Shown here: positions 3,220-63,700 of the stretch, piece after piece
How positions within the stretch are numbered: the first letter of the stretch is position 1
Layout of the letters: each line of letters begins with the position of its first letter
Assembly: GCA_001414345.1 (NCBI GenBank)
Contig: LLCB01000129.1
Coordinates: 62,001 to 126,000, forward strand
Length of the DNA: 64,000 bases
Reading direction: 5' to 3'
DNA from: Hymenoscyphus infarciens
Lineage: Eukaryota > Ascomycota > Leotiomycetes > Helotiales > Helotiaceae
The notes under the pieces: model-generated
Databases searched by the model: none
Told to the model about the DNA's origin: nothing
What the model saw: the letters and a program-made list of their open reading frames with translations, nothing else
Translations under genes and position numbers: made by a program

Positions 3220-5470
3220 TTAGTCAGAGTAGAGAACTGTTTTAGTAGGTCCACTGTAATTAAAACTCTCGCCACCAATCCTAGGGAAAGACACGATTGA
3301 CTGAGATTGGATATCGGTATTGGAAAGAAAAATGATATATGGAGGGCGGTAACGAGGAACGGGTGCTGGGGGGATGAGGACCTCCTCCAGGAAATAATTC
3401 AAATCATCCATTCGATCAAGCTGCATGTCGGATGGAACGTCGGGAAATAAATTTTCTGCTTTTATGAAGATTATTACTGGGCGTGGAAGGTACTTATCCT
3501 CCAAATCCGTGAGTCTTGGAGAGAGAACAGAGTATGTCAGTGGTCGACTGGTGCCCCATATATATTCTTTCGCTCTCGAAAGCTCCCGCGGGTCTTTCGT
3601 ACAGGGGTCCATATAATTCCTGCAGTGGAATTCCAGAGGTTGTTCAGCGAAGTTGGTGACACGCCAGAGGTCAGTCATCTAATACATCGAAGTTAGTTTG
3701 CTTCCTCGGCTAATTGTACGAAGTAAGTCTTGCATAGGTGTACCAGATGACGTTGCAGAAGTGAGAAATCAATTCTCCATTCTCCTAACCCCTCTTTGAT
3801 GATTGAAAATCTCTCAGGAGAATGTTTCCGGCCACGAAACAACTGAGATAGGGAAACATGCTCTTAGGGTTCACTTACATAGCCAACATATGTCTCGTTG
3901 TCAATCTCACTAGGACCGAAAAGACGCACAATGTTGTCCCGCATAAGTTGTCGCTCGAATAGTAGATCGGGTTTAATTTGAAGAGCCAAGAATCTTGAAG
4001 AATCATGTTCAACGCTTTTCGAGCTCATATAACTTGACGCTGATGAGATGCTTCTCGTGCTGACACTCGATTGAGAACGAAATGAGACACTTAGCCATGA
4101 GCGCGATGGTTTCTCCTGGCTAGATTTCTTTCTTTTGGTATGTCTGGGGAGAGCTCCATCGAGATACGCGTATGTGACTGGTACAAACCAGTCCTGGACT
4201 TCGATGCGAGGGTAGAGCTCCACGCGGACACGACAGTTGCGAAGACCTTTTCGTGCTTGGCTTGCCGAGTCAGAAAAAGAATCCAGGTCTTTGAAGAAAC
4301 TACGGTAGAACCTTTCGCAAAGGAGTCGTACTGCCGCGCTTGATATGTTGTAGGACATGGCGAGTATCTTCAAAGAATTTTCTATTGAAAAGAGTCGACT
4401 TAGATTTCCTTCATTGCCATCAAATGGATTCGCGGATTTGCAAGCATTCAGGACAGCGTAGGGAACTCTGTGTAAGTGAAGCTCGTCGGCAATCTCCCTG
4501 GCCGATACCCCGACGAGATTGTTTTTGACGTCTTCCGAGTCTCTTTGCAAGAAGTCTTCGTGCAAGAAATGGAGGTATGAGGTTTGTGTATTCTGATCTT
4601 GACTGAAGTTATACTTAAGCAGTGATCAATTGACAACACCAATCGAGAGACAGAGACTTACCTTGTTTGACTCGTGACACGGCCATGCACATCGAAGTGG
4701 ACGATATCAAAGAACCCTTTGGGGCGTGCGTTGAGATGCGTTTGGAATGCTTTAAATGTACCAGGCCGTACCACTTCCAAGACTATACTGTGATGTGACT
4801 TGACATCTTCGAGTGTACGTTTCATACGTAGGATTACGCTCATTGTAACCCCAGGATCAATGTCATAGTATTGACCCTTGTTTCTTTCAAAGCTCCTTGC
4901 AATTACCAACAAAATTTTCACCCGGCCCTTTTCTTTCTCATAAATCGGTTCTCCAGTAATTTCGGCTGCTGGACCCCCAATGACCTTGGATTGGGATGCC
5001 ACTCGTCTGACTGTGATCGTTCGGGATTTAATTCTAGGCCACAGCTCTTCGTCCTCCAATTGCTCCCATCTTATCCGATGAATTGTATTTTCCGTCTCAT
5101 GTTGACTGCCAGACTCCCTGATCTCTATGAGAATTTTTGGACGTTTCAAGGACCCAGAAAACATGCCAATTCCCAACCGTCTGAAAAGTTCCTTCCCATA
5201 CTCGCTTATTAAGGTATCCGTGGTTTTTGCAATTGCAGCATCGTATTTCCCCTCGTTCAGCATCTCATTGAGATATATCAAGCAAGATTTGTGGTCTGAG
5301 CTCGAGCATGGATCGTAGAATGTACATTCGATCGGTCTCGGTTTATCGTCTACTGTGATCTTGACGTGGTATTCCAGTCTTCCATCTTGGAAAACCCTCA
5401 GGCAAGGTATTTGTTGGATGACGATCTTGTGGAAGTCGGGTACAGCGAATGTTTTTAAGGAGGATGGCAT
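3220..5470 (-). CDS. CHAT-domain (caspase-like) protease, fungal gasdermin-protease type
   Basis: Reads right to left in several exons. Exon 5470-4662 ends just after the CHAT histidine (FDVHGRV). A 59-nt intron (4661-4603, GTAAGT...TTCAG) leads in frame to exon 4602-3879, which carries YLHFLHEDF and the catalytic-cysteine motif LNACKSA. Two further joins (3878/3842, an implausibly short 36 nt, and 3743/3678, with ACTAAC branch point) give a C-terminal part ending at 3220. Both members of the His/Cys dyad are present, so the protease may be active. The N-terminal 130 residues (FQDGRLEYHVKITVDD... region) resemble the lead-in common to fungal CHAT proteins. The C-terminal part begins with a YVG-like motif but shows no P-loop; it contains a PRPVIIFIKAENLFPDV segment of unknown role. 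The start is uncertain: ATG 5470 is used here, but splice-like signals at 5532/5473 suggest a short upstream exon. Divergent from the gasdermin-like gene at 6381. Confidence 0.7.
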
Positions 5471-6380: not shown

Positions 6381-7613
6381 ATGAAATATGACACACCGCC
6401 TGAGGATAGAGCCTTCTCTAAATTGAAGCGATTGTTCCGGATTTTGAGGAGTATTTTCTTTCAGCCATCACACGGGGAGCCCAACGACGCAACGAATGAC
6501 AAAATGGCAATCAGAAACCAACCTTTGAAGATTTTGGATGACTACTACCTGTTACCGACAGGGGCAAATATCGAGAGGTTTGACAAACTATTAGGGAGAG
6601 TTGTTGAGAACCATGTCTACCCTCTTACTCGATATGAGCCGGATGACGACCTTGTTCCCCAAAAATTGGTGCCAAAACTCATGGGAAACTCGAATCCACT
6701 TGAGTCGGTAAAGGAGACTTCTCGAAAAGACCGAAAGAGCGAAGCAAGACTTAAGGCAGGTTTTTCTCATCCCTTTCCCTTCTGACGGGTCGTTTCAGGA
6801 GAACAAGAAATTCGTAATCAGTGAAGTGTAGAGTAAGTATACTCTACTCTCTCATTGTTCGACGAAGACTTATGTACCCGATTTCCTGTAACCCTCCGCA
6901 CTTTGAACACTCGCTATGAATAGCAATACTGACCTGGAGATACTCTACAGTTAACGGACCTCGTGGGAGCGCATGCGAGCGCGGAAGAGGGGCAATCTGC
7001 GACCGTTTCGGTGTACTTGCTAAAAACATACGATATGACGCAAATAAGGCTCAATTTCGCGACACTTAAAGAAAATCCTCAGTATCTCGCTGGCATCAAG
7101 AAGCTTTTTGATGAAATCGAGCACGAAGGGACCGGAAATAAACGTCTTCCCATGATAACGAAGGTCCTGGTCTGTGAGGACGTAGAGGTCACAACAACAC
7201 AAGAATCGAACAAGGCGGGTGGATTTGAGGCCACCGTCCCAGGAACAGCAATTGCCAGCAATGGCGCTATACCAAAAGGACCACTGGATGGGGAGGTTGC
7301 TTTTGAGCACGGAAAAACAACAGCAGCCGAGAAGAGCAAAAAGATTACGGGGGGCATCATAGTTGGGCTCGCATATACGTGGATAGAGCAACAGCCAGCG
7401 CAACAACCGCGGAAGACGAAACCCAAACTGATGGATAGGATCAAGTCGTGGTTTCACAAGGAAGAAGGACATAAATATGACATAGTTGTTCGTAACAATG
7501 ATATTGGTGGGCCCTATATGGAGGTGCCTGGCAGAGAAGAGGAAGGAACACAAACAGAAGGGAAGGTTATTGAGGAAAGCAGCAGCGATGCCCAGACGGT
7601 CGAAGTGAATTGA
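6381..7613 (+). CDS. Candidate fungal gasdermin-like pore-forming protein (RCD-1/HET-Q1 type)
   Basis: Exon 6381-6707 (or from the internal ATG at 6504) and exon 6951-7613, preceded by CTACAG, keep frame. An optional 15-nt exon at 6799-6813 can lie between them; the middle splicing is unresolved. The product is about 330 residues, or 290 from ATG 6504, against roughly 260-280 for known fungal gasdermins. The N-terminal part has YYLLPTG followed by LLGRVVENHVYPLTRYEP. The second exon has VYLLKTYDM, an NPQYLAGIKKLF helix, MITKVLVCEDVEVTT, a G/A/P-rich stretch and GGIIVGLAYTWI, then a basic RIKSWF segment and an acidic tail. Order and pattern match what I recall of the RCD-1/HET-Q1 family: a GRVV segment, a Y-x-L helix region and a beta-strand pair before a flexible cleavable region. 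Fungal gasdermin genes are often next to a protease gene, here CHAT on the other strand. Called by resemblance and context; a profile search is needed. Confidence 0.5.
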
Positions 7614-8174: not shown

Positions 8175-11100
8175 ATGACGATTCATCACGAAGACCTCGA
8201 CCTCGGCGCCTTAATTCGGAATTTCAAAGAAAAGATACAGGAAACGACATGCTACTCCCTCGCAAATCCTAATATTGATGAGAGGCGTCCATTTGTCCCC
8301 ATGAAGCGTGTGGAGGCATACTTCTCTGAGAATCAAAATGAGCGGCTGAACAACATCTTGAACGCACTGTACCACCCCGAAATACCTCCGACATACCCTG
8401 AAGCCATCCTAAGGAGATATAACTCAGTGTTTTGTATCCTTCTGGAGATTGGTAAGGGAGATATCATTCATCTCTTTACAGAACACGACGCCCTGCGGGA
8501 TAATCACCTGCCCTTCGATGAATCAAATGCCCCTCTACAGTTTCCGGAGCGTGCGGGAAAACCGAGTTTTTATCAGGAATTTTGTCAACATCAATGGAAA
8601 TACTCCATTCCTTCCTTTAGAAGACCCATGGATCAGTCCTTTCCACCCCAACAAATCTTGCCAATCATCGCCCGGGATCAGCTGTCCGAGGGCAAATCCG
8701 GTTATAGCCTCTCGAGGATAATCATTCACGAAGATTATAATTTTTTGCACACAGAAAAGAGCGAACTGGTAGGTCTTTGTCTTCAAACCAAACAATCTTT
8801 GCTTATGCCAGCAGCAAAATACATTCACCATGAAATCGTATGCTTCCAGCTCGGCCCACGAGATAGACCTTTATGATATTGAGGTAAGAGTATTCAGGTA
8901 TTTCAGACACACCCAAGGTATATTAGGATACTGCGGAACATATAATCAAGATGATACCTTCAATATCATACTAGAGTACGCAGACCAAGGGGACCTGGAC
9001 GAGTACTTCAAGAATGTACCCCAACCCACCACTGGAGGGGAGATCATCAAGTTTTGGCAACGCGTTTTTATCATCATCAAGGCGTTGGCTGCAATACACA
9101 AATTACAACCCAGTGAATTTCCAAATATCGGGTAAGGCTATGTATTTTCTCGTCCCACCGAAAATGAAGCTAACAAACTTAGATGCCATCTTGATATAAA
9201 ACCGTCAAACATTCTCGTCGCTAGTCATGATGCGCCAACTCCTTATGAATGGAAGCTTCAACTTGCAGACTTAGGGTTAAAACAAATCGGCGGTAAAGTC
9301 TCCAATAATGAAATTTCTAATGGGCGTCAGTCTTACGGCATGTTACCTCCCTCGAAAGTGTGACACATACTAACAACCCCAAGTTTCCCCTGAAATTGCG
9401 GCCAATATCCAGATGCCGAGTCAACATAACGATATTTGGTCGTTAGGGTGCATCTTCAGTGAAGCTGCAACATGGATCGCAAGTGGATACAATGGATTGT
9501 TGGCGTATCGTCTCCAGCGTACGATTGAAAATGACGAGGACCATAATCCCGTCCCAAGGACCGGCTTCCACGACGGACGGAAAGTGCTGGATGTTGTCCA
9601 GGAACATCACAGAAACTTATCGAATATTTTACTCTCTGATGATTTCATTACCCAATCGGTCATAGATCTCATGGTTGAAGAAATGCTGGAAGTGCCGGAG
9701 GGACGTCCAACTGCAGACCAGCTCCTGGTCAAATCGGAACGAATTCTCTCCAAGGCTAGATATCAGTACGCGGCGTTGGGGAATGTCCCCTCCCAACAAA
9801 ACAAGAGTACCATCCCCTATACAAGACCTGTTTTGCCACGAAGTCCATTGTCAAATTACGAGATATCCAGGCCCATGGATGGTCAGACCCCCTCGAATCA
9901 AATTATTATAGCTCATCACTCGAAGTCGAGTACACGGAGAGTATCTCAAAACTTGAAGGGAGATCAAACCGGCGAGCTTGCAGATATTTCTGAACAACAA
10001 CACTTCCCTTCGATCGTTCAACCGTCTAGCAATGGTTTAGCGGACTCGGTAAACACTGATGCTGGCACAACTCGCGTAATGGCCCCATCCTCGCTGCCGC
10101 TTACACCAAGGCTTTTGATACCGGACTTTGATGACTTCTCTTCCAGTGCTGGTAAGGAATTCTCTTTTCACGTCACCAAGCTAAATTCCATTACGATAAA
10201 CCCTCTTGTCGCGCTAAATAGCCATCCATGTCTTAACTGCAAAAAACGATCCAAGAGTTCTAGAAGTTATTATTCTAGGACAACTAATAAAATGACGAGA
10301 GCTGTTTAGTGCTCCACTTGTTGTCTAGTTTGCGCTTTGGTGGAGATGTGAAATTTCACTGATTATGAGATAGAACAAGAACACGATAGTATTTTTCGAC
10401 GACGCACAGACAGCCCTAGGAGGTCTAGATCTGATGGTCGCCAGGTTTCCGAGGCTCCACTATCTGTAGCAGATGTCCAGCAGTGGAAAAAGGAAAGAAA
10501 AAGCAAATATGGAGCAACTCCCTTATTCGATTCTCAGTCACTTAAACAACTAAGCTCAAGAGATCATGTAAGTAAAATCAATTCATCGAAATCCAGATGA
10601 TCGGTCCTTGCACCCAGGTCCACTACAGCATAATTTACAAGACAATTGAAACAATTGAAGTTATTACCCGAGATGGGTTAGGAGAATCGAAGATTTGATA
10701 TCCCAGTTCTCCTAACCCTTCTCGGTTAATAGCTATAACCTCCATATTATATTTTGTACAGGGGCATAGCAGGGTGACGGGATGCAATGACCAAACTTCT
10801 TGCCACTGCTATACTAACACATTAGAAGATTTTCGTTATTGATGATTCGGCTTCTATGTCGCTACACTGGAACAAATTGCGAGATACCGTTGAGGCCTTG
10901 GCCTATGTCCTCAAACGCGCGGATTCTGACGGTATCGATGTGGCTCTCACTACTTCCAAGGATGAAATCAAAGCCGTACGGTCAACCACGAAGCTTATAA
11001 GATTTCTCGAGCAGCAAAATCCGAAGCAACACCCATGGAATGCGAAAACGGATATCAATTCAAGCCTTGGTCCCATCTTGATGAGGCACAGGGATACTGT

Positions 11101-11680
11101 TCGCGAAGGGACCAGATCTCGATCAGGGAAGCGTCCCCGACCCTTCACCTTATATGTTTTTACCGATGGCATTTGGAAAGGAGATGAAAGTAGAGATACT
11201 CACTTGGGAATACTTGAAAAGGATCTCAACTGCCTCGAGTTTGATGATTCAAGTTGCGGGGTGCAGTTTATTACCTTTGGCGACGACCCGGTAGGGTCAA
11301 AGCGCTTGGATCGGCTGGACAACGAGCTTCATGGGTGAGTTCACTACCAATGAGTTCTACTCTTGAGAAGTATACTGAATAGCTCACAGAGACAACTTTG
11401 ATGTCACCCCATGTACAGGAAATATCCGAAAGATGTTATTTGGGGTAGGAAGCAACCAAAGGAGCGAGCAGAAAAGCCGTTCGAAGAAGCGCCTCCCAGC
11501 AGTCAAGAGTGGCATCAGGCGGTTTTCAACTACCTTGTCACTCAAGTCAGGACCAGCGGAGTCACGGGGCGAGATAGCTTATGTCACCAATCCCGTCGCC
11601 GCTATCCAGCCTAAACCCAGACATCAAAGCTCCTCCTACGGTCTACTTGAGTGGACCACTCCTCCATCTCCAGCTGTAGA
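8175..11680 (+). CDS. Protein kinase plus von Willebrand A modules (N-terminal part of a probable NLR fusion)
   Basis: Exons by splice signals and frame: 8175-8768, 8815-9131, 9183 to about 9337, 9384-10151, 10374-10567, 10826-11334, 11390-11680. Kinase hallmarks: a glycine-loop-like SEGKSGYSL, Lys in FTMKSYA, catalytic loop HLDIKPSNIL (HRD changed to HLD), DLG in place of DFG, then SPEIA and DIWSLGCIF. Lys, catalytic Asp and Asn are retained, so it may be active. A low-complexity linker is followed by LSVADVQQW and a vWA domain with all MIDAS elements: DDSAS, a TD in NAKTDINSS, and VFTDG. Kinase-vWA proteins of this layout are common around fungal NLR genes. One join (9337/9384) needs a GC donor or another solution. 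The last exon has no real stop: TAA at 11682 lies inside a GTAAAT donor, and the frame continues into the hydrolase module at 11736, so this is probably not a separate gene. Confidence 0.75.
10663..10730. repeat. Long hairpin inside an intron
   Basis: Positions 10663-10686 and 10707-10730 are 24-bp inverted repeats with two mismatches (arms contain GGGTTAGGAGAA and TTCTCCTAACCC), separated by 20 bp. They sit in the 258-nt intron 10568-10825, unusually long for this gene, just before the vWA exon. A related TTCTCCTAACCC run occurs once more near 3779. It may be a small inserted element or an RNA structure. Confidence 0.6.
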
Positions 11681-11735
11681 GTAAATAGGCTTCCCCCGCT
11701 TCTATACTCTTACGATGCTAATTTTTATTTTCTAG

Positions 11736-14700
11736 CGTTCTTTTTGTTCATGGACTTGATGGGGACAGGGAAAAAGACTGGGTGGTTCGTGAAAGAAATG
11801 ACTCTTCTCAGCGCAACTGGCCCAAGGATTTGATGTCCCCGCATTTTCAGAATGCAAGGCTTCTGACTTACGGATACGACTCTACGCCATGGCATTCTTC
11901 TTATCCAATCAAAGATGTTATCACTTCTCAGGCACGCACTCTACTCAACAGCCTCCAGAAAGTCCGGGAGCGTACTCCGGACAGGCCTTTGATAATTGTT
12001 GCGCAAGGTGTTGGCGGCCTTTTAGCAAAGAGTGCACTTCTCCAGTCACACCTATCTCTCGATACAGACACAACAAAACAAAAGGCTATCAAATTGTCTA
12101 CAACTGGTCTGATTCTATTGGAACCTCCAGACGTACGGATCTCGGGCGAATTGGTGGTGCCGGCGGTTTTAGAGACCCATGGAGAGGGGCATAATGCTAA
12201 CGAACCTAGGAAGTCTACTGCGAAAGATGCAGTTTGGCTAAAGCTGCAAATGGAATCGTTCCAAACCATTTCCGATTCTTTCAACATAATTCATTTCCAC
12301 AGCTGCAGAATCCCCCACCAACCACATAGACCATTTCTGGTAGGTTTCCAAAAGATCATCCTAGCTTCTTCACTAACAATACACTTAGCCCACAACCAAT
12401 TCGAAAGATATGCATATGCAGGGACTGCACAGGATTTCCGTTACCGCTCATCAGCTTATAGAAGAGCCTAAAACGATGAGTGGCAATATGGAATCAACCA
12501 ATGCATACCGAATAAGCAAAGCCTTTGAGGTGGATCGAATTAACGAGTTTCGAGGCCAAGACGATCGAAATTATCAGGCAATCATTCACGCATTCGAAGA
12601 TCTTCATAATAAGGCCATCGCCCAAAGCCGTTTCCAATGGTCAACTTATGAAATAGACAGAGGTAACTTAAACCAGTCCTTAGAATTGTTCGTGTCACAA
12701 GTTAACTTGATTGACAAGCATCCGCGGAGTCTAATGGCGTGGGATTCAGTAGTTCAGATGTGCTCAAGCTACACCCTGCTCGTAACGATCATTTCACTGG
12801 CAGGCATACTGCCTTGGATTCCATTCGTGCCGCACTTTTCCACGTTGATAGCCGAAAAGAGTCGAGAGGAGCCCCCTCAACTGTAGAGATATACGGCTCT
12901 GCTGGCGTTGGGAAAACCCAGCTTGCATTGGAATTTATTCATCGATACAAGCACAAGTTTTCCACGATACTTTGGGTCGACTCGCAAAATCGGGCGTCTA
13001 TCGAGAAGACTTTCTGCAAGATTGAGCGCAAGCTATCCCGAAACCGTATCGCCAATGCCAATGCTGCAATGACCCAGGCTTCCAGATTAAACATTAGCTC
13101 ATCTTCCGGATCAACGAGTAGTACTGACACCTGGAGAAGCTCAAACTTGACAAGGCACGTTGAACAGCAAGGCTTACCGTCCTGCTCCACTGATCTGGTC
13201 AAGGCGTGGCTGGCCAGAGAAAATAATTCTCAGTGGGTAATGGTCTTCGATGGCGCAGATGACGGGAAGAAGTCATGGATTCAAGAATTTTTCCCGAACA
13301 CAAAAAATGGCAATATTCTAATAACCAGCCGGCATCGGGGTCTATTGAAAGGCATTAGCAGTATACGACTTGACCCTATGTCGGAGGAAGATGCAATTAA
13401 GCTTCTTCTATATTCTTGCCCAGCTGGTTAGACATTTGTACTTAAAAACTCTGTACTCTACGCTAACAGATAATTAGCCGACCAAAATACAGCTTTAGAG
13501 CTCGTGAGAAGACTGGACTGCGTCCCACTGGCTATAGCGCAAGCAGGTAGCTATATATCGTCAACGAAGCTAACTCCCAGCGATTATCTCAGCCGCTTCA
13601 AAGAAGCGAGACCTCGGGCTTGGGATGACTACGCAACACGTATGAGAATGGTTTTCTCGACCTCGGTAGACGAAGTATTTCTAAAAGGTTACCAAGAGGT
13701 CAAGGCCAAAGACCACAAAGCTCTTGATTTACTCATCATGTGCTCATTACTTGCTGCCGAGAACATACCAGGTCTTGTTCTGGAAGCCCTTTCAAAGCAA
13801 TCAGGTAAGATATCCTGTCATTACCCTCCGGTACCGTTCTATCTTATTGTTCAACAATTCTCACACAATTGCAAATATTCTTTCAGAGGATTTCGGAGAC
13901 TTAAGAAGCCAACCTTCTAATTCTTCTAAACCTTCTCGAACAATATTTATAATTGTGTCCCCCCGTCTAAAACATTCAAAACACGTTCTCTTACATTTTC
14001 CTTGCTACCGTAATTAAATTCCAGACCTGATTGGGACCTAGGACTTCGTTTGGAGGACATGGTTGACACCTTATTCAACAATGGCTTTGGGCATCGGGAA
14101 GAGAACTTGCAAAGCTTCCGCATGCACACATTGGTACAGTCGTGGCTTAGAAAACGCCTTACTCCCGAAATGCAACAATCGCTCGTCAGCAGAGTCCTCA
14201 GCAGTTTGGCTGCCGTCGTCGAGTTTTGGCGGATGCGAGACGAAAAGACGTTGCAAGGACTTGAAAAGTTGCTGGTGAGGCATACTCTTGCTTGTCTATC
14301 TCGAGTCGAGAATGTACAGCATTGCAATGTTAGCTGGTGTGTTTTAGGCGAGGTCTGCAAACAAGACAAACGATATGGTGAAGCGACTATACTCTTCGAA
14401 AAAGCTCTTTCAGATCCAGACATCAGGGTGAAAAAGAGTTGTGCCGACCGCCAACGTCTTGGTTTTGAGCTCGGGTCATTGTATCAAATGCAAGGGAGAA
14501 GTAACGACGCAGTGGCAAAGTATGAAGAAATATTGGGCGAGTGTGACCAAAGTCCTCTAGATGAAGACAGCATACATCTTCGCGGCCAACTTTTGCTTGA
14601 TATATATAGATCATTATCCTCCGTATATACTCGGATCGGACGAACAGAGCAAGCGAGCAAAGTACTAATGGAAGGAGTTGCAAAACTCACGGGTCTCTTC

Positions 14701-15324
14701 GGACGCAACAGCTTCCAAACTTTACAGCTTTTAGATATCTGTGCAGCAGAACATTACGACCAAGAAGACTACGCGCAGGCCGAATATCTCAGCGAATGGA
14801 TCGTCTCAGCGCAAACCCAAACGTTAGGTATCGACCACCCAGGGACTATACATGCGCAAGAAAAGCTTGCTCGTGTCTACTTCCAACGCTCAAAGTTGAA
14901 AGAAGCAGAAGAACTCTCCCGGCATTGCCTCACAGGCCTGGAAAAATCTCTTGGACCACAACACCCTGCTACCCTTCAACAAGTCGTGTTCCTCGGTCGT
15001 ATCTTGAGTAAAAGCCATAAATTCCCCGAGGCAGAGGAGCTTCTGAATCGTGCCGTCGAAGGAGCATGTGAGGTGTTGGGTTTGCAACATCCGGAGACTT
15101 TGAATGCGAGGGAGGAACTGGCTATGTGTTATGAGGCTCAACGGAAGTGGGAGGAGGCACATGCTGTTTATTTGCAGGTTATGTTTGGGAGGGAGGATGC
15201 TAAGGATCCTGGGATCAGGAGAACTTTGGAGAGATTGTTGTCGCTTATGGAGATAATGGAGATGAAAGAAGAAGCCAGGCAGTTGAGGGTGCAGTGGAGT
15301 AATGGGTTTGACGGTGCGGTTTGA
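11736..15324 (+). CDS. NLR-type receptor: alpha/beta-hydrolase-like, NB-ARC and TPR modules (C-terminal part of the kinase-vWA fusion)
   Basis: Exons 11736-12339, 12389-12662, 12758-13426, 13478-13804, 13887 to about 13960, and about 14025-15324 join in frame; only the last junction is unresolved. The hydrolase-like domain starts VLFVHGLDGD, but the nucleophile elbow is VAQGVGG, with Gly where GxSxG lipases and esterases have Ser, so it is probably catalytically dead. NB-ARC: Walker A YGSAGVGKTQLALEF, Walker B VMVFDGADD, NILITSRHRG, a GLPL-like CVPLAIAQAG, and RMHTLVQ in the MHD/winged-helix position. A Ser-rich insert lies between the P-loop and Walker B. The C-terminal 400 residues are TPR repeats of the kinesin-light-chain type (LG..HP.TL), the likely ligand-sensing part. 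There is no ATG or gap between the vWA exon and VLFVHG; the first join (11680/11736) gives EWTTPPSPAVDVLFVHGLDG, which reads like the normal lead-in of this hydrolase domain. If it is a separate gene, it would have to start inside the vWA exon (ATG 11433). Confidence 0.8.
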
Positions 15325-15534
15325 GGGGGGGGGGAAATGACGTTTTGGAAAATCATATAAAGCTTCTCTAGATAACGGAGGGTGACGATTGAAGTGACGA
15401 CGGCTTTAACCAAAGTAGGTTTCTGTTTACTTTTCTACTTGACTGTATTTTATGCAAACAAAATCAAGATTCCTAGAGTGTACCGAAAAAATTGATGATA
15501 TTGGGGGCGTTTTGAAAAGGGCGAAGCGATTCTG
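15325..15534. other. Short intergenic segment
   Basis: 3' flank of the NLR gene and 5' flank of the decayed GTPase gene. It contains a run of nine G at about 15325-15333; nothing else is seen. Confidence 0.4.
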
Positions 15535-17450
15535 GTGACTCAACAGAAGCCGATTAAGCAAGGTGTTAGCTTCATGGCAAGTCGACGACAGCGACAGTTA
15601 GATAGAGGGTTATCGAGATCCAGGTCAACCAGTAGATTGAGTAAAGACCGAAATGCGAAGAAATATCTTCTTCAAGAAAAAATACTTCTCGCCCCCCGCG
15701 ATTCGTTTTCGAAAAAGAAAAATCAACAACAGTCCTCATGATGTGAAAGACGAAGAAGCTCTCCTCGAACCTTTTTCCAGTTCGGCTTTTCAGAATGCGT
15801 TATAAAGTGGGTTGAATAGTTTAAATAAGGTTGTTACCGCCGTTGAAAGATTGTCTGGCTCTTCAGAGCCCTCGAGTGACCTTGAGAGGATATCCCAAGA
15901 CGCCAGAAGGCTGGGGACCTTTCGGAGCTCAAGTACAAGGACGATTGCGGTGCTGGGAGATTCTGGGGAAGGTAAGTGGAACATCTTATAAAGGAGTTGA
16001 GTTTATATTTGAATTGTTTATAGGGAAAAATAGTCTTATTAACTCTTTGCTCTATTTTTCGGAGATTACTAAAACTGTAAGTTATGTTTATCAACTACCT
16101 AACGATTTTTAAATGCTTATATTGTTAAATAGAGGGATACTAGCTCTGCTTATACCTCGGTTGTCACCGAATATAGGCAAAAGACAATCGAACATACGAG
16201 TCCTATTATAATTGAAGTCGAATACCTGTCCGTGTTAGAAATCGAGAACCTTGTCAAAGAGCTTTTATAGAACTACTGTCAGCTATTCTTTCCCTAAGTA
16301 AGAAGTGACGAGGTTAATACAAAGGATTATGCTCGCTACGAGAGGGAAACTAAGTAAGCCTGGTCAACTTTAGAAGCGGTTTTTAAGTATCAGAGAAGTT
16401 TCAATAAGCCGTTGAACTCTGATATAATTGATGGGGGATTGTTGAAAGCCACAGAGCTGTTGGTGAAATGGGCCCGTCAACTTGACTGGCTAACTGGTGG
16501 CACCAGTGGATTTTAGAAAGCAGCAGCGGACGACGCCGAAGAGTGCTGTGAGATGACCAGCGTATTCATGCAGGGCAGGTCTTGGCCTTTTACTAAAGTT
16601 ATTCGGTATGTACCATGACCTATTTTCCATTTTTTCTAACGAACCATTTTTCTGATAAACCATTCTCCTAGCAACTATCCGAGCGCCGAAGTCCTTAACA
16701 CTGGAGTTGTACTTGCGGATTTGCCCGGTTAGTACCCCCTTAAAAAAACAATGTGATCTAAGAAAATAATAGAACATCAGGGTTGCAAAATATCAATCTT
16801 GCAAGAGTACAAGCAACACAGGTCTACCTGATGAAGTGTGATAACGTGGCAAATATATCTCGAGCCATTACCGATCAATCTCTCAAGTCATCCCTTTACA
16901 GCGTTCTTGCACGACATGCCCCTTTAGAATGGGAAGAATCCGGTGTGAAAAGTTTGAATTTGGCAGTTGTCTGTACGAAATCAGAAGTAAAACCAATCCT
17001 CTCCTTAACTAAGACTATGAATAACTAATACGTGTCAGGAAATCAATTACAACACTGCTAGAAGGGAATTCTGCGGTCCTTATAAGAAAATACCGTACTC
17101 GGTGATGGAAAAGCTTGACAAGGACATTTAAAGAGCGAAGAGAGATGGCAATAAAAGTCTTAAAAAAGAATTGAAACGACAGTATTTTAAGGATGTTCTA
17201 AATTCGTTGTAGTAAGCTGATACATCTGTAGGCAAGATCTTCTTCTTATTAATGCTCGAAGCAGCTATGTCAAAGATGGGCTTTAAATTGCCTATGCTTC
17301 GAACGCTCTCGGCGGCTATCTGGATGTCTTCTCTATATCTAATACAACTTATGAGAAGTTTTTAAGAAAAGGTACTACTGAAATGGTTCTTGTTAGCGGA
17401 GTTCTAGAGCTTTGTTGATTTTGCTATAAAATTACTATGTAAGGTCAACT
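15535..17450 (+). pseudogene. Decayed dynamin-like / SLIP-GC-like GTPase gene
   Basis: Pieces of a fungal dynamin-family GTPase are readable in order on the plus strand. These are VVTAVERLSGSSEPSSDLER; TIAVLGDSGEG, then an intron (GTAAGT...TTATAG), then KNSLINSLL, so the P-loop reads GEGKN where GK[ST] is expected; RDTSSAYTSVVTEY; and, after two more introns, GVVLADLPG, LQNINLARVQATQVYL and NLAVVCTKSE (DLPG and TKxE/D motifs). In-frame TAG/TAA codons occur several times, for example at about 15804, 16268 and 16515, at places where CAG or CAA would restore sense. The Lys-Asn change is likewise a G-to-A event. Density of lesions and AT content rise towards 17.5 kb. The gene was probably part of the NLR-rich block and was damaged by RIP spreading from the adjacent repeats. 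Confidence 0.7.
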
Positions 17451-55070: not shown

Positions 55071-56411
55071 TCAGACCTTAGAAGTCAATCCGAACATACG
55101 GTTCAATTCCAAGATGAAATTATTTCTCAAGCCCCCTCCTGACAAATGCCCCCTAAACTGATCTTCTTCCGGAATAACATGTTTCGACCAATCTTTGATT
55201 TCATGTACTTTCAAGTTGTATTCAGACCAATCCTGTATTTTACAATGGTTCAAATTGTCCAAAAGCCCTTCAGGCGTCGAGGGGTGGATATTTCCCCTTT
55301 TCCGTGTAGTATGGAAAGCGCTTATGACTGCGTTGCGGGCAACGAACGAGAGATACAAAGATTGATTGAGATCTGGCTTGGGGATGTGCTAAAAAAAAGT
55401 AAAATTAAATGCACGAACGAAAATAATGAGCAGAGTGAACTTACACCTTCTACCAACTCTTCCGTCTCGGGCGGTATTGGGTAGGAGAAACGGAACTGGG
55501 GCGTTTGCCCGTATATCCAATCCGGTGACTATCGCTATGTGAGTAAAGTGTATAGTTGAGGATTTAGGGACACAAACTCTCAACTCGTTGATCCCCTTCA
55601 TGATCTCTGGTACACTTCCTTCTTCTTCCCCAACCAGGACGGGTTTTACAGCGCCATACATTTCCTTAAACTCCCTGACCACAGCCTCCTCAAAATCTTC
55701 ATTTTGCACCTCGACATTCGCAATGGGCGAACTGACACTATCCACGCCCCTAGCCTTTATATATCTTTTCGCCGGACTCTTCAAGAATTTCCCAATATTC
55801 CTCAAATTCGGCGAATTCAACAGACAAGTTCCATGATGTACACTCCGTAATCTCGTAAGCTTGTACGCACTACCAGAAACCTTCAATGGCGTTTCTGACT
55901 CGGGAGAATCCAGCACAATATCATGTCGCTCATTGACCCTGACCCTCTCAACGTCCAAACTACGCAATGCTCGTACCACCATCTGCGCATGTATATCTCG
56001 ATCGAACTTCCCCGTGGGGCAGATGACGCTGTAGTTCACGTTCCCTTCATCGTGCCAGACTGTTCCGCCGCCGGATCTTCTGCGTACGAGGTCGGGTTTT
56101 AAGGGACTGTTTCGGAGGCGATAGAGGTTGCATTCTACCCATGGGTTTTGGTTTCTACCGATTATTATGCTTGGGGAGTTGGTGTAGAGGAAGAGGATCG
56201 TGGAGTCGGGTGGGGATTTGGTGAGGAGGTGATGTTCGATTGAGAGATTGAGGTACGGGGAGCGACTTCGAGAGAGGTAGATTTGGGTCTTTGCGTTGGG
56301 GATTTGGTGGAGGGAGGATTGGAAGCGAATATGCCATTTTGGTTTTGAGGTTGATGTCAATTTGTACGCATTGATGAAGGAGAGGAGGGTTGAGCCTCTG
56401 GAGGGTGACAT
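55071..56411 (-). CDS. Lipoate/octanoate-protein transferase (LplA/Lip3-like), mitochondrial
   Basis: Three exons join in phase: 56411-55578, 55528-55445 and 55388-55071, giving 411 residues. The biotin/lipoate ligase fold shows the signature RRRSGGGTVWHDEGNVNYSV and the substrate-Lys loop KVSGSAYKLTR followed by HHGTCLL. The second exon gives the conserved DWIYGQTPQFRFSYP, which only appears in frame after splicing and so confirms the intron. The last exon carries the small accessory C-terminal domain. The N-terminal 35 residues are Ser/Thr/Lys-rich without acidic residues, consistent with a mitochondrial presequence. In yeast the homologue moves octanoyl or lipoyl groups to E2 subunits and H protein of dehydrogenase complexes. 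Divergent from chorismate synthase, sharing a 0.6-kb promoter region. Confidence 0.9.
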
Positions 56412-57026
56412 TTGGAAAATAGATGTTTGCTGGTCTACAAGGTACCTTTTCTAATCTCAGCCTCGCGATGGTCTGTAAAAGCGGCAGTAGGTAATTGCTT
56501 CGGGTTCCTATCGAACTCCAAATTCCACAAGTACTTTCGAGAGCATTCAGGTAATTACCTCAAATGGTTTGAACAATCTAGAATGTTTTTATTTATCCAG
56601 ACCTCTTTCAAAAACATATCAATTTGAATATTTTGGGTTTCCTACCTGCTCAGTTAGAACATACTGCGGCTTTATCTATCCACTCCTAGAGTTCGCCTCG
56701 CTTTGTTATCTCATAGCCTTTGTTAGGTTAAAAATAAGAGCCAAACCAATGGCTCACTTACTACCATTTAGATATACTTTAGAAAAGTTCAAGCTGGCTA
56801 GTAATCCAATCCAGAAGAGAGTCCGGCGGGACGCCGGCGTTGACACCGGACCGAGCTCGGGTTTGACTCACCGATTATCGCCCGGCCTTCAAGGTTTCTT
56901 TGTAGAATTGGAGTCACTGACAGAAAAAAAGTGTACAACACCACATCAGCTCATTTCACTCGCTCTTTCCGCTTGCCCTCCTTCTCTCCATTAACAAAAC
57001 ATTGGGAACTTCCCATCACCTTCAAA
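56412..57026. promoter_or_regulatory. Divergent promoter region, lipoyl transferase / chorismate synthase
   Basis: 615 bp between the two starts. Balanced composition with a GC-rich patch at 56820-56860 containing the palindrome-like GGCGGGACGCCGGCG. The plus-strand frames inside have no domain and are taken as chance. Confidence 0.5.
56864..56870. promoter_or_regulatory. Gcn4/Cpc1 (cross-pathway control) binding site
   Basis: Perfect TGACTCA, 157 bp upstream of the chorismate synthase ATG. Gcn4/Cpc1 activates aromatic and other amino-acid genes in fungi through this heptamer. A one-mismatch GGAGTCA lies at about 56913. Confidence 0.6.
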
Positions 57027-58339
57027 ATGTCAACCTTTGGACATTTCTTCAAGGTTACCACGTATGCCACCCAATGTTACCCCTCCTTGCGCCTACTAAC
57101 ATTTTTCTCTCTAGCTATGGCGAATCGCATTGCCCCTCGGTGGGATGTATTGTCGATGGAGTTCCTCCTGGAATGGAACTCACCGAAGAAGATATCCAAC
57201 CTCAGATGACTCGACGAAGACCAGGCCAAAGTGCCCTCACCACACCCCGCAATGAGCAAGATATAGTCCAGATTCAATCTGGCACCGAGTTCGGCGTCAC
57301 CCTGGGCACGCCAATTGCGATGGTAGTACGAAACAAAGATCAACGGCCAAAAGACTACGGAAATTCAACAATGGATCTCTACCCACGACCGAGCCATGCG
57401 GATTGGACATACTTGGAGAAATACGGAGTAAAGGCAAGCAGTGGTGGTGGACGAAGCAGCGCACGAGAAACAATTGGACGGGTGGCAGCAAGTGCAATTG
57501 CAGAGAAATACTTGACATTAGCGCACGGCATTGAGATTGTGGCTTTTGTATCGTCGGTAGGAGGAATTCATATGTTCCCACCTTCGGCGACGCACCCAAC
57601 GCCTTCTACGAACCCAGCTTTCCTTTCCTTGATCGAGACGGTGACACGAGAAAAGGTGGACGAGTTTGTGCCCGTGCGATGCCCCGACCAGGCAGCTACA
57701 GACCGGATGGCGGAAGAAATTGCTGCATTTCGGGATCGAAATGATAGTATTGGAGGAACGGTGACTTGTGTCATTCGAAATGTACCAAGCGGGTTGGGAG
57801 AGCCATGTTTTGACAAAATGGAGGCGATGCTTGCTCATGCTATGCTGAGTATTCCTGCTACAAAGGGATTTGAGATTGGTTCGGGTTTTGGGGGTTGTGA
57901 GGTTCCTGGATCAATACACAACGATCCTTTCGTCGTGGCACCAGCGGTTCCTCCCATGGAGACGGGCGCGTCAAGAAACGGCGTTCCTAGACCGAAGTTG
58001 ACCACGAAAACGAACAACTCTGGGGGGATTCAAGGTGGTATTACGAATGGGGCACCAATTTACTTTCGCGTGGGATTCAAACCTGCCGCAACGATCGGCC
58101 AGGCCCAAGAAACCGCAAGGTACAATGGGGATGATAGCGGGGTTCTGGAGGCAAAGGGAAGACATGATCCATGTGTCGTCCCACGGGCTGTACCAATCGT
58201 GGAGGCTATGGCTGCATTAGTTGTGATTGATGCACTGATGTCTCAACAGTCGAGGCAGGTATCGAGAAGTCTACTTCCTCCCTTGAAGAAGAAAGATGTT
58301 GCTACGGGCGAGAAATTGGTTGGCGTTAACGGTGTTTAA
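57027..58339 (+). CDS. aro2: Chorismate synthase (last step of the shikimate pathway)
   Basis: Exon 57027-57061 ([11 protein letters not shown]...) and exon 57115-58339 join across a 53-nt intron (branch CTACTAAC, acceptor CTCTAG) to give [18 protein letters not shown], the invariant N-terminus of the family. 419 residues, close to other fungal enzymes. Other family signatures: [50 protein letters not shown], and [13 protein letters not shown] near residue 330. It converts 5-enolpyruvylshikimate-3-phosphate to chorismate using reduced FMN; fungal enzymes carry their own flavin reductase activity. Cytosolic. Upstream Gcn4/Cpc1 site fits amino-acid control. The in-frame ATGs upstream of 57027 are not used because the family N-terminus starts exactly here. 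Confidence 0.97.
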
Positions 58340-58883
58340 AATAGATAGAAAAATGGTGATCGCTTCTTTCAATGGCCATCCGCCCTTTATCCTCGAGTTC
58401 GTGATTGTTTCTAGTGCTTGGTCACTTCTTTTTGTGGTCCTACTAGTCGTTTCTCGGGTTCCTTGGGTTCCCTCTCTCTTAGGAAGTCAATTAGACCACA
58501 GTCGGACTGGCTTGAACATATTGATCTAGGGACTGAGAAGTTAGACGAGCTGGAAAGGAGAGTGTCTCGATTCATCACGTGTTGTCCATGACGAGGAGCC
58601 TAGGCACTTGACGCAGTGAGCAGTAATTCATTACCTTACAGGGTTTAGGTGGTGGAGGTAGACTCTCTAAAGACTATCGTACAATGATCAAGCATAATTG
58701 ATTGTCGCACGAGAGTTAGTAGATGCCTTAACTGTCAGGCGATAATCAAGGATTTTGAGGCTTAAAATCCTTAACTATTAAGCGAGCTTAATTCTTAAGA
58801 GAGAATTGATTATTAAAAGCCCTTACTTCTCAAATAACTCTTAAGAGTCAAAGCTCTTTGAGGCTAGTATAAGTATATACTAA

Positions 58884-58940
58884 CCGGAAGAACTATACTC
58901 TGGGCGGAAGCACTATACTCCGGGCGGAAGCACTATACTA
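58884..58940. repeat. Tandem repeat of about 20 bp, three copies
   Basis: Unit ACTATACTCCGGGCGGAAGC with minor changes, following TAACCGGAAGA. Directly followed by the palindrome TAGGCATATGCGCCTA. Confidence 0.7.
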
Positions 58941-59129
58941 GGCATATGCGCCTAGTAGACAGGGGTACTCGTACAACTCGGTATCGCTCGTAAACAATTA
59001 ACGTCAACGCTATTATAATATAAAGAAAGTATTCAACCGATTCAGCGAAAGTTATCCTACGCGCATTAGTCGGGGCCGTATCGGTATACTCCGTACGTGT
59101 ACTGCCCTTATTATAGTAAAGAAGCATGT

Positions 59130-59195
59130 ACCCCTGGCCCCACTGGCGCACCTGGCCCCTGCGCACCTGGCCCCTGCGCACCTGGCCCCTGCCGA
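59130..59195. repeat. 15-bp GC-rich minisatellite
   Basis: Unit GCGCACCTGGCCCCT repeated about three to four times, the first copy diverged (CCCCTGGCCCCACTG). Confidence 0.75.
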
Positions 59196-59228
59196 GGCTT
59201 AACCGATTCTAACTCTCAAGCGATTTTA

Positions 59229-59436
59229 CTATCCCCCCCCCTTAAGTATTTGTAAAGTGGGTCGAGTGGAGACTGGGGGAGGCTGTGTAAAGTCCTGGTA
59301 AGGTTAGGGTTTTTAGCTAATAGAAGCTTCTTTACCATTCTATTTTTTGACTTTGACTCTGCTTATTGGCTCAGCGCTTTGACATTACACAGGACCCGCA
59401 AAGTGGGGATTACATATACTTAAGGGGGGGGGATAG
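59229..59436. mobile_element. 208-bp MITE-like inverted-repeat element flanked by a 19-bp direct repeat
   Basis: Ends CTATCCCCCCCCCTTAAGTA and the complement TACTTAAGG...GGGATAG give terminal inverted repeats of about 26 bp. Identical TAACTCTCAAGCGATTTTA copies lie at 59210-59228 and 59437-59455. No coding capacity. Confidence 0.6.
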
Positions 59437-60718
59437 TAACTCTCAAGCGATTTTAACTCTTGGCTCTCAAGAAAAACTTAAGCCTCAGGCATGAAGGCGA
59501 TTATCTTTAGAGGCCCCGTGACATTCGGATAATCAAGACGCTTTGACCCTCGTCTGAGAGTCTATTGAGAGTCCACTGGCCCCACCAAAACCCTTCAAGG
59601 TAGTCTCCCGAATATAGTTTGTATGATATCACAGTGCTCTATTAAATCCCACTCATTGATATAAGGTCATGAAATTGGTTATGTTATTTACCTCTTTAGC
59701 TCCACTTTACTCTAGAGAATTGGAAACTCGTTGTTGATATTAGAAGACACGGCGTTCTGATTCTCTATCTTGACTTGGATTACAGAAGAGTAGAGAAAGA
59801 CTTACTAAGAAATATGTGGAATTGAAAACTCTCTTCTTTTAACTTTACTCTCTCCTTTTTCTAGAAGAAGTAAGTTATGTTCTTATTTCTACTGAAAAAA
59901 TTAGAATTTTTTACTTATCTTTACTCTTCTAATATAACTTTAATATGTTTTCTTTCTCGATTAATCAGTTCTCTTCTTTTAACTCTAATTCTCTTTCTAT
60001 CTAGAAGAGAATAATCAATTTAGTTGTTTTTGCTAAAGAAGAGCTCTTACTTATAAAATGAAGTTTTAATATCTTAATCTAATAATAATTCATAAATTTT
60101 AGGGTTTTAGTACGGGTTTTAGTACTAGTAACAAATTTGGAGATATCTAATAGGTGGACACGGGCGACCCTGTAACAACAAATTGCAAAGAGACAACAAA
60201 ATTGTGAATTGACGCGCAGGATACTGATTTACCATTCCCTTGAGTCTTCTTATATTTTCATGTGGTTTCCGTCGAATTATACGAATTAAATATACGCGTT
60301 GATACACCTTATAGCCACAGCGAGCACTGTGCAGGCAGGAGCTAAGGTTACCCATGAGGAAGGAACCCCGCATCTTCCAAACCCTCGCTTCCCCCCGCCC
60401 CTTTTCCTTTTCCTCTTCCTCTTTCTCTTCCTCTTCTACTTTCACATATCAACCTTTCTTCTCCCTCGTCGATGCTATCCATCTCCATCACCCTGAACCC
60501 GGGCAAGGCGCTCACCAACACACCAACTTCTCGGGAAGAATCTCGAGGAAAGATCCTGTATCCATACACGTTCTCACACGTTGAGATGGAACAGTTTTTG
60601 AGAGTAAATCTTTCAATCACATTGTTTCCACGTGGCGTTGGCTGTAGGTTCAATTCAAGGGGTTGGGGACGTTGTTAATTGAAATATCGCGAGTTATCAT
60701 GTCCAATGCCTGCCTATC

Positions 60719-63700
60719 CTATCGCCTCGATCTCGAGAATGCTGCCCTCTTGGGAGGCATTCCATCGAAGAAGCCCACTGCACGCAAATACTCAACGTTT
60801 CTCCGAATTGCAATCTTGACTCGAGCGGAATCCCCCGCCATGCTTCCGGTGCCAGCTTCGTGCATTGGCACACCAATCTTCCCCTTCTCCTGCTCGAGAA
60901 TCTCCATTACCGGCCAAAGAGGATGTGCCTCATGGCGAGAATCGAGATCAGCATACACTGCTCGCATCCACCCCTCTTGACCCAGCGGAGTCAGGTTATA
61001 CCCACAATCTTCTCGCAAAACCTTCCAGAAATCACCAACGAGAAGCCCGTCAGCTACGTCGACTTCAGCTGCAGGCGAAGGCTCTTTCGGATCACAACAT
61101 TCCACAATGGTCTGAGCAACATGACCTACATCGGCCACAAACAGCCAGCAATCCGCGTCGGCTTCGTTGTAGCCCTTGATGTGGATACACGTCGCGACTA
61201 GTCTCCAAAGGAAGTCGTCAATGTTTGCGATACCCTCCTCCGCAGTACCAATGATAAACCCCGGTTTGACAACTGACACACGCTGTTGGTGATAGGGACT
61301 TATTTGGGCGTACTCCTGGACCAGGAGCTGTGACAAATATTTTGTCTCGGCATAGCCCGTGGGCAGGGTAGGCGAATCGTCGTGGGAATCACTCGGCTGA
61401 GGGGAGGAATACCTTTGCAATGTTCCATGGTATCCTCCTGCTACGTAAACAAATTTCGACACGGAAGGAGCCTCGTGAATCGCTTTGAGCAAGTCGAGAG
61501 TCGAGTCAACGTTTGCCGCTTTGAGGCAGGAAAATCCTCGATTCCAATGGACATTGGCACCGTTGTGGATGACTATGGTGATTCGATCCAACGCCGATGA
61601 CCTCCCAGTCAGGCGGTCCCATTTGTCGGTACTCACTCCCAGCCGTGGCTGCCCAAGGTCACCGGTCCAAACCTCGATTTTTTCCAAATACGCATCATTC
61701 CACCAACCTGCCCTGCTCGCCGAGTCTTTGATTCTTTCCAGGCCGTGTGCAGCAGTTTTACCTCGGACGTGTACAATTATTTTCCCAATACTTTCTCGAG
61801 TGCATAGCTGGAAGAGGAGCTGGGATCCAAGAAAGCCAGTTGCACCTGTAAGAAGGACAACGCTCAGATCCGGGATTTGAGACCAAAACCGGGCCTGCAT
61901 TTCTTTCCTGTATCGTTGGAATGTCGGTATCATCTTTGCCTGCTTTTCAAAGACTTGATCCTTTCCCTGGTCTTGAAAATCATGGATCAAATGTGAGATG
62001 GTACGAACAGTCCCTAGAAAAAACTCGCTTGTGTTGAGGTTTACGCCGAATTCTTTCTTGATAAAGGTCCTCAAACTGATGATCTGGATGGAATCAAAAC
62101 CTAGTGTGCCCAGATCCCAATCATGTCCATCGAACTTCGTAGGGGGACGCCCATCGTTGGGATAGAGAATACTCGAGATCCTCCGGGACACTTTCAAGGC
62201 GATCACCGCCTCTTGGGAAATCAGACCATTGGTCAGACTATTGCTGGTGACGAGATCCTCGACTGGCCGAGTAAGATCCGTAAGCCATTGATTTACCGTT
62301 TTCCGATCCATCTTCTGAGAAGTGGAAAGAGGAATCTTTTCAACAACTAGCCAGTGATTCGGAACCATATATGGTGGTAGTTTCATTGCCAAAAACCTTG
62401 TGAGATCGCCTACGTTAAACAACAACACATCCAGACGACTCCGCTCTACCAAACGAAGAGTGGTTCTTGTGGAATCTGAACCCGACCCGGTATCTATATT
62501 CTCCAACTCGATAACTGCCACGAGACCTTTGGCATACGCGCCTGATTTTGGACTGGTCACCATGCAGAGTGCACTCCCTGTAATCAGTGACAAGGTTCTT
62601 TCCACCTCTTCAAGCTCAACCCTTTGGCCACGAATCTTCACCTGAAGATCTTTGCGTCCCACGAACTCGAAGGACCCGTCCGATATCTGCCTCACAAGGT
62701 CTCCTGTTTTATATATTCGCCGCGTTCTGGTACCGGCGATTTCAGCGGGCCACCTGGGGTTCTTGATGAATACCGATTTTGTCTTGGTTGTATCATCAAG
62801 ATAGCCGCGAGCGAGTGTCGGTCCCTCAACACAAAGCTCTCCTATGGCTCCAATTGGAACAAGACGGTCATGATCGTTTTGATCCGTAACCCAGCAGACT
62901 CCACATCCAAATGCTCGCCCAATGTTACCGGGTCTGGCATTGTGAGGAATGACGGTAATCGTGCATGCTGCACACTCGCAGGGCCCATAGCAGTTGTAGA
63001 GGCGAACTTTATGTGCCCAACGAGAGATGTTCTCTTTAGTTACTGCCTCGCCACCCAGAGCCAGAGTTTTTAATGTTGGAACCTCTTCAGGTGTGAATAG
63101 GCTTGCAACCGATGGAGTGAACAGCGCCCAGTTCACTTCCATGTCATTTATTGTACCAGCAATATTGCCCATGCGTTCGTCTTCAGATGGTGTGCATACA
63201 ACTCCTCCGAAAATCAGCGTTGTAAAAATGTCCATCATGCTTACGTCGAAGGTATACCTAGGCACCTCGGTGTCAGTCAACTCCCAAAAAACTCTCAGTA
63301 GTCAGCTCACTTACGCGGCATACTGCAGCACACGGGACTTCGAGGTGATATTCATCGCTTTCCCATGAGCAAGGGAGCTTGTACATACAGAGGCATGCTC
63401 TTGGACGATTCCCTTGGGTTCCCCTACATGAGGATCTCGGAGTCAGTTTACTTTGAGAAACAATCAAATGTTTTCGAGTCTGTTTCGTGAGTAAGGAAAA
63501 AAAGCCCAACTCCCGAAACGACTAGAATAGGGAGGTGTTCCCCGAGATTCTCACTTACCAGTTGAACCTGAGCTGAAAAGGACGAATGCTGCGTTGTATG
63601 GCTGAAATTTGACTGCTTGAGGGATGACTGGGTTCTTGATCGATTCAAGAAGGCATCGATTTACAGCCAGTGTTTCCACCTCCATGTTACTGAACAAATG

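Follow-up and report, generated by a model that had tools for sequence, protein, structure and literature searches.

Results

A kinase-vWA gene and an NLR gene in one reading frame

In the genome of Hymenoscyphus infarciens (65.6 Mb in 742 contigs) we analysed a window of 64,000 nucleotides, positions 62,001 to 126,000 of contig LLCB01000129.1 (G000:C34:62001-126000), in which a gene at 8175-15324 reads without interruption from a kinase-vWA protein into a fungal NLR of the hydrolase-NB-ARC-TPR type. The gene model, assembled from reading frames and splice sites into a spliced chain, runs from the ATG at 8175 to the TGA at 15324 over 6024 nt and 2007 amino acids (aa), with that TGA as its one stop, and encodes from N to C a family N-domain, a protein kinase, a linker, a vWA domain, a dead alpha/beta-hydrolase-like domain, NB-ARC and TPR. 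The DNA is read most simply as one chain of about 2,000 residues, as a preliminary description of the window had proposed; its gene coordinates and the frame kept over some 7 kb hold, while its "about ten exons" become 12. We consider it probable that the two halves form one chain also at the protein level. The introns and gene families of the window suggest a filamentous fungus.

The junction between the vWA and hydrolase domains

The kinase-vWA frame reaches a TAA at 11682-11684, and this apparent stop lies, as had been claimed, inside a splice donor, GTAAAT (11681-11686), with the next exon in frame. Beyond the last vWA motif, TGNIRKMLFG, the vWA frame stays open for 78 residues up to the donor at 11681. 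Intron 7 ends in ...TGCTAATTTTTATTTTCTAG at 11735, its branch and pyrimidine stretch look good by eye, and the split codon GA/C gives an Asp in frame with VLFVHGL. The spliced junction reads ...GLLEWTTPPSPAV-D-VLFVHGL, or in a longer form ...YGLLEWTTPPSPAV-D-VLFVHGLDGD, and at the corresponding place the free-standing paralogue of contig 722 has ...VELTEVYSHPEAQVD-IILVHGLNGD, which bears out the earlier impression that the joined text resembles the normal lead-in of the hydrolase. Of 20000 random stop-free peptides drawn from the window, 24 scored as well as the 15 residues before the junction, in an alignment chosen after seeing the sequences. From the last vWA motif to the hydrolase the sole in-frame Met is at 11433 and the next, at 11833, is beyond the VHGL strand, so that, this exception apart, no in-frame Met is available for a complete separate hydrolase.

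Paralogues of the two halves stand alone in the genome

Querying the genome with the vWA domain returned three loci (the fused gene, contig 80 and contig 722), and the kinase query added contig 581, the closest other relative, in which N-domain, kinase, linker and vWA recur; since this gene was missed by the vWA query and found by the kinase query only, the number of kinase-vWA genes is at least four. All three free genes found end shortly after the vWA domain (10, 14 and 14 residues past KML[LR]G), whereas the fused gene reads on, and introns 3, 5 and 6 of the fused gene have positional counterparts in each of the three. Pairwise identity among the four genes is 31-36% over joined pieces, so that none of them is a recent copy; the identity of the fused module, over its length, with the free copies found is 31-33%, and the nearest kinase pieces in the genome are 47 and 39% identical to its kinase. 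That kinase-vWA proteins are usually separate from NLRs is thus true within this genome, where the other three found stand alone. The catalytic loop of the contig 581 gene (G000:C581:23500-33400) reads GHCGITP, without the Asp that is present in the other three family members, the fused gene included, and by this motif the contig 581 gene is likely a pseudokinase.

On the NLR side, at least four NB-ARC matches were found at E ≤ 0.001 (a lower bound, the contig 722 receptor with 21.9 bits lying outside the four), and a kinase-vWA precedes the window gene only: in the open reading frame lists of the 10-kb stretches surrounding the other three matches, inspected by eye, no kinase-vWA was seen. 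The genome Pkinase search, with 124 of 228 candidates scored, missed the kinase of the fused gene and was not used to judge other NLRs. Contig 722 carries counterparts of both fused parts on the + strand, a free kinase-vWA (117399) and a free hydrolase-NB-ARC (162403), about 45 kb apart.

Domains of the fused gene

The fused gene conforms to the kinase-vWA family in domain order and in the kept catalytic and MIDAS residues, and departs from it in that the protein is not ended shortly after the vWA domain. For the N-domain no Pfam family was found up to E 1. The kinase has K205, E221, the HLD Asp (D308), N313, the DLG Asp (D333) and SPE (357-359), whose positions were checked and which we take to be the kinase motifs commonly so named. 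By sequence it comes closest in the PDB to NEK7 kinases (E 2.7e-10), among 314 matches at E ≤ 0.001, so that the kinase is typical rather than specific. The vWA domain scores beneath its Pfam cut-off (E 2.1e-4, 22.0 bits against 23.8) and in the PDB gave by sequence a sole, unrelated match (E 0.41).

Exon 8 on its own gave no Pfam match, and the domain is assigned to the hydrolases because exon 8 aligns with two paralogues, one of which exceeds the DUF676 cut-off. The preliminary description had called this hydrolase dead, and the comparison agrees: AQGVGG and EPPDV stand where both aligned paralogues have AHSLGG and GTPHxGS, so the GxSxG-type nucleophile elbow and the GTPH of catalytic SesB-like hydrolase NLRs are lost, in the same chain in which the motifs of the kinase, MIDAS and NB-ARC are intact. 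Of the first 20 PDB rows retrieved with a weak structural model of the hydrolase, made from 3 sequences (predicted local distance difference test, pLDDT, 60; predicted template modelling score, pTM, 0.63), 12 are named as lipase, esterase (EstB among them) or cutinase, and none of 906 matches reaches E ≤ 0.001. The remainder is of the NLR/STAND type, with a nucleotide-binding domain carrying both Walker A (GSAGVGKT) and Walker B (VMVFDGADD) and with C-terminal superstructure-forming repeats, TPR_12 being found in four stretches.

Intron structure

The features of the gene are given in Table 1. Ten of the 11 introns have GT-AG borders, the exception being intron 3, in the activation segment, whose position and phase are common to introns of all three paralogues, there with the donors GTAAGG, GTGCGT and GTATGT. 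The GC-AG class makes up 1.009% of fungal introns according to PMC7072748. A GC donor, GCAAGT, is found also in the contig 581 paralogue, at its intron after RDH, and GC donors may therefore be ordinary in the kinase-vWA family. The sequence offers an alternative in-frame GT donor for intron 3 at 9326, at a cost of four residues, and the chain continues with either donor; two GT-AG readings were rejected, one of 42 bp that breaks the frame and one of 26 bp that is too short. For the long introns 4 and 11, frame decided the choice of acceptor; the join at intron 11 gives a spacing into the winged-helix region that we take to be normal, and acceptor 14024 was rejected because it breaks the frame. 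Pieces related to one arm of the inverted repeat in intron 5, which resembles a miniature inverted-repeat transposable element (MITE), occur at 3771-3795, near a CHAT gene, and at 13921-13936, in intron 11.

Table 1. Features of the fused gene and of its surroundings (window coordinates; RIP, repeat-induced point mutation).
Feature	Position	Strand	Description
Whole gene	8175..15324	+	12 exons (8175-8768, 8815-9131, 9183-9337, 9384-10151, 10374-10567, 10826-11334, 11390-11680, 11736-12339, 12389-12662, 12719-13426, 13478-13804, 14042-15324), 11 introns; spliced model without internal stop
Exon 1	8175..8768	+	Family N-domain and degenerate glycine loop; aligned with three paralogues
Exons 2-4	8815..10151	+	Protein kinase and start of linker; Pkinase E 2.8e-20, residues 199-470
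Intron 3	9338..9383	+	GC-AG (GCATGT...CCCAAG)
Intron 4	10152..10373	+	222 bp; acceptor uncertain, 10373 or 10379, in frame both ways
Inverted repeat in intron 5	10659..10734	+	28 nt, MITE-like; one further genomic place, 83% over 71 bases
Exon 6	10826..11334	+	vWA domain, MIDAS-like DDSAS and VFTDG; aligned with three paralogues
Exon 7	11390..11680	+	Last vWA motif (TGNIRKMLFG), followed by the 78-residue linker that includes the hydrolase lead-in
Intron 7	11681..11735	+	55 bp; donor GTAAAT contains the apparent TAA stop
Exons 8-9	11736..12662	+	Alpha/beta-hydrolase-like domain, predicted catalytically dead; exon 8 shares 35 and 30% identity with its two aligned paralogues
Exons 10-11	12719..13804	+	NB-ARC, 30.8 bits against a cut-off of 23.5; GSAGVGKT, VMVFDGADD, CVPLAIAQAG
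Intron 11	13805..14041	+	237 bp; acceptor 14041 chosen by frame and domain spacing
Exon 12	14042..15324	+	MHD-like FRMHTLVQ, then TPR repeats; TPR_12 E 4.9e-30
CHAT protease-domain gene	3864-5470	-	Two exons, at least 515 aa; 32.8 bits against a cut-off of 24; HFDVHG, NACKSA motifs
Gene of about 290 aa	~6381-7613	+	Between CHAT gene and fused gene; sole genome match is itself
Degraded gene	15500-17400		P-loop GTPase-like start (VLGDSGEG...), by eye; at edge of RIP block
AT-rich RIP block	18001-40000		22 kb, 24% GC
Ordinary genes	55389-63301		Far side of AT-rich block; lipoyl ligase, chorismate synthase, AMP-binding/PP-binding/reductase protein

Genes around the fused receptor

In the CHAT gene of Table 1 we take HFDVHG and NACKSA to be catalytic. 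The gene of about 290 aa next to it matches no Pfam family even at E 10, has no PADLOC match and no credible relative in the PDB, and an alignment-free fold model reached a pLDDT of 36. Features seen by eye, and presumed by us to be those of a gasdermin, had suggested such a protein, an idea that found no support in the Pfam and PADLOC results, in a sole NCBIfam match that is far below cut-off and unrelated, or in the PDB, where none of the three matches within E 10 is a gasdermin; an exon-by-exon search of the genome with Pfam Gasdermin gave no candidate. Fungal cell-death clusters described in PMC10197012 pair CHAT genes with gasdermins, and the gene might be a cell-death executor, an idea supported by no tool result.

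Discussion

From the continuous frame, the domain order, the kept and lost motifs and the ends of the paralogues we infer a single transcript and, with it, the order of events and the biochemistry of a possible all-in-one intracellular STAND receptor encoded by one gene, with kinase-vWA as its output module, a reading that we hold tentatively. A kinase-vWA gene would have lost the stop in its last exon and been fused with exon 1 of a hydrolase-NB-ARC-TPR receptor gene lying downstream. In the product the TPRs would detect a non-self or danger cue, the NB-ARC would swap its nucleotide and oligomerise the chain, the clustered N-terminal kinases would activate one another and phosphorylate targets, the MIDAS domain of the vWA would recruit a partner, and the hydrolase, formerly the effector of the receptor, would now be a non-catalytic spacer or scaffold; output, binding module and switch are roles suggested by the motifs of kinase, vWA and NB-ARC, respectively. 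The kept kinase residues together with the dead hydrolase fit an output transferred to a new N-terminal module. Domain recombination is described as typical of fungal NLRs, with recurring fusions inferred (PMC4986451), and the N-terminal domains of these NLRs are treated as effectors, PKinase being listed among them (PMC4986451, PMC9815663). We count for the same reading that the gene, which lies in a stretch of 46% GC adjoining the block of 24% GC at 18-40 kb, carries no RIP signature (TpA/ApT 0.72, CpA index 1.25), in contrast to the strong signature of the block (1.69 and 0.11).

Several points weigh against this receptor. The 80-codon stretch between the halves is as open in 2.5% of 20000 simulations with the composition of the flanking non-coding DNA and the segment, and in 6.2% of 20000 with the segment's own composition, so that its openness alone is modest evidence. 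The codon usage of the linker is not separable from that of non-genic DNA, 25% of 3000 background windows scoring equally high in a test that is without power here, where even accepted exons score near zero. Furthermore, the splicing of intron 3 depends on a GC donor, the glycine loop of the kinase is degenerate (SEGKSGYS), and the C-terminal kinases published for Sordariales NLRs are interpreted as decoys (PMC12258605).

The last point leads to the main rival to kinase output, an integrated decoy, in which the chain is single and kinase-vWA serves as the bait copy of a protein attacked by an invader, with the output elsewhere, for instance in a partner recruited after oligomerisation. Nine C-terminal PKinase domains of Sordariales NLRs are explained in this way (PMC12258605), cereal kinase-vWA proteins are proposed as effector targets, with the second kinase and the vWA of Lr9 as decoys (PMC10260399), and the three free kinase-vWA genes of the genome could be the guarded proteins. 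We regard a decoy as unlikely here, since the module is N-terminal, the effector position of fungal NLRs, since the catalytic residues are retained, and since its low identity to the free copies means that it mimics none of those found closely; within the one-chain reading we favour kinase output.

Rather less likely is that the locus makes two products, a kinase-vWA ending at the TAA at 11682 through retention of intron 7 and an NLR whose translation begins with Met 11433, the fusion being minor or absent. The in-frame TAA within the donor, the A at -3 of the ATG at 11433 and the separate existence of both halves elsewhere in the genome suit this possibility, but the free kinase-vWA would end in a tail of some 80 residues without counterpart in any of the three paralogues, 252 bp would belong to both coding regions, and donor, branch and acceptor of intron 7 look good by eye. 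Improbable above all is a decaying gene, a recent or relaxed fusion whose full protein is blocked by damage to splicing or by insertion. In favour of decay are the GC donor of intron 3, at a site with GT in all three paralogues, the MITE-like insert in intron 5, the long intron 11 and the adjoining RIP-mutated block. Against it, the 2007 codons contain no frameshift or stop, the retention of the key motifs of kinase, MIDAS and NB-ARC at 31-33% paralogue identity argues for long selection, and a GC donor is used by the contig 581 gene as well.

With the fungal NB-ARC-TPR NLRs that have a SesB-like hydrolase N-domain the fused gene shares the order hydrolase-NB-ARC-TPR and an intact P-loop, MHD-like motif and TPR, and it differs in its dead hydrolase and in the whole kinase-vWA protein ahead of it. 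With the fungal stand-alone kinase-vWA proteins it shares the order of N-domain, kinase, linker and vWA and three intron places, but those end 10-14 residues past the vWA, where the fused gene enters the NLR. A kinase domain in the chain of a fungal NLR is a known though rare feature (PMC4986451, PMC12258605); of the 12 Sordariales NLRs with PKinase reported in PMC12258605, nine have it C-terminally on NACHT NLRs, whereas in the fused gene it is N-terminal and on NB-ARC. Neither "vWA" nor "von Willebrand" occurs in the main text of PMC12258605, "vWA" is absent from PMC4986451, and "vWA" and "Willebrand" are absent from PMC9815663. On the other side, vWA is among the abbreviations in the legend for a figure showing 45 NLRs of Podospora (PMC12881547), so that vWA in a fungal NLR may already be known and need not be new. 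No title naming a fungal kinase-vWA-NLR fusion appeared in literature searches, mostly of listings, which is weak evidence of absence, and the rarity of the architecture is judged from these searches and this genome. In cereals, Lr9/WTK6-vWA combines kinase and vWA in immunity (PMC10260399), and Sr62/RWT4 are kinase proteins that act with a helper NLR, which some tandem kinases require (PMC12830362); these are separate proteins with plant kinases, and we claim a likeness of design and no homology.

It may be, though we think it doubtful, that the partnership of kinase-vWA and NLR has been hard-wired in one fungal chain, with an active kinase-vWA replacing a dead hydrolase as output, and that retention of intron 7 could also release a free kinase-vWA, giving a switch between receptor-bound and free forms. 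The parts of the fusion are visible in this genome, where three free kinase-vWA genes stop at the place from which the fused gene continues and where the hydrolase lies dead behind a new N-terminal module, and the role of an NLR N-terminal module thereby becomes testable in one protein. The gene would be a fungal parallel in design to the cereal kinase fusion proteins that act through NLRs and, if mRNA confirms the chain, it would represent a new way to build a fungal immune receptor.

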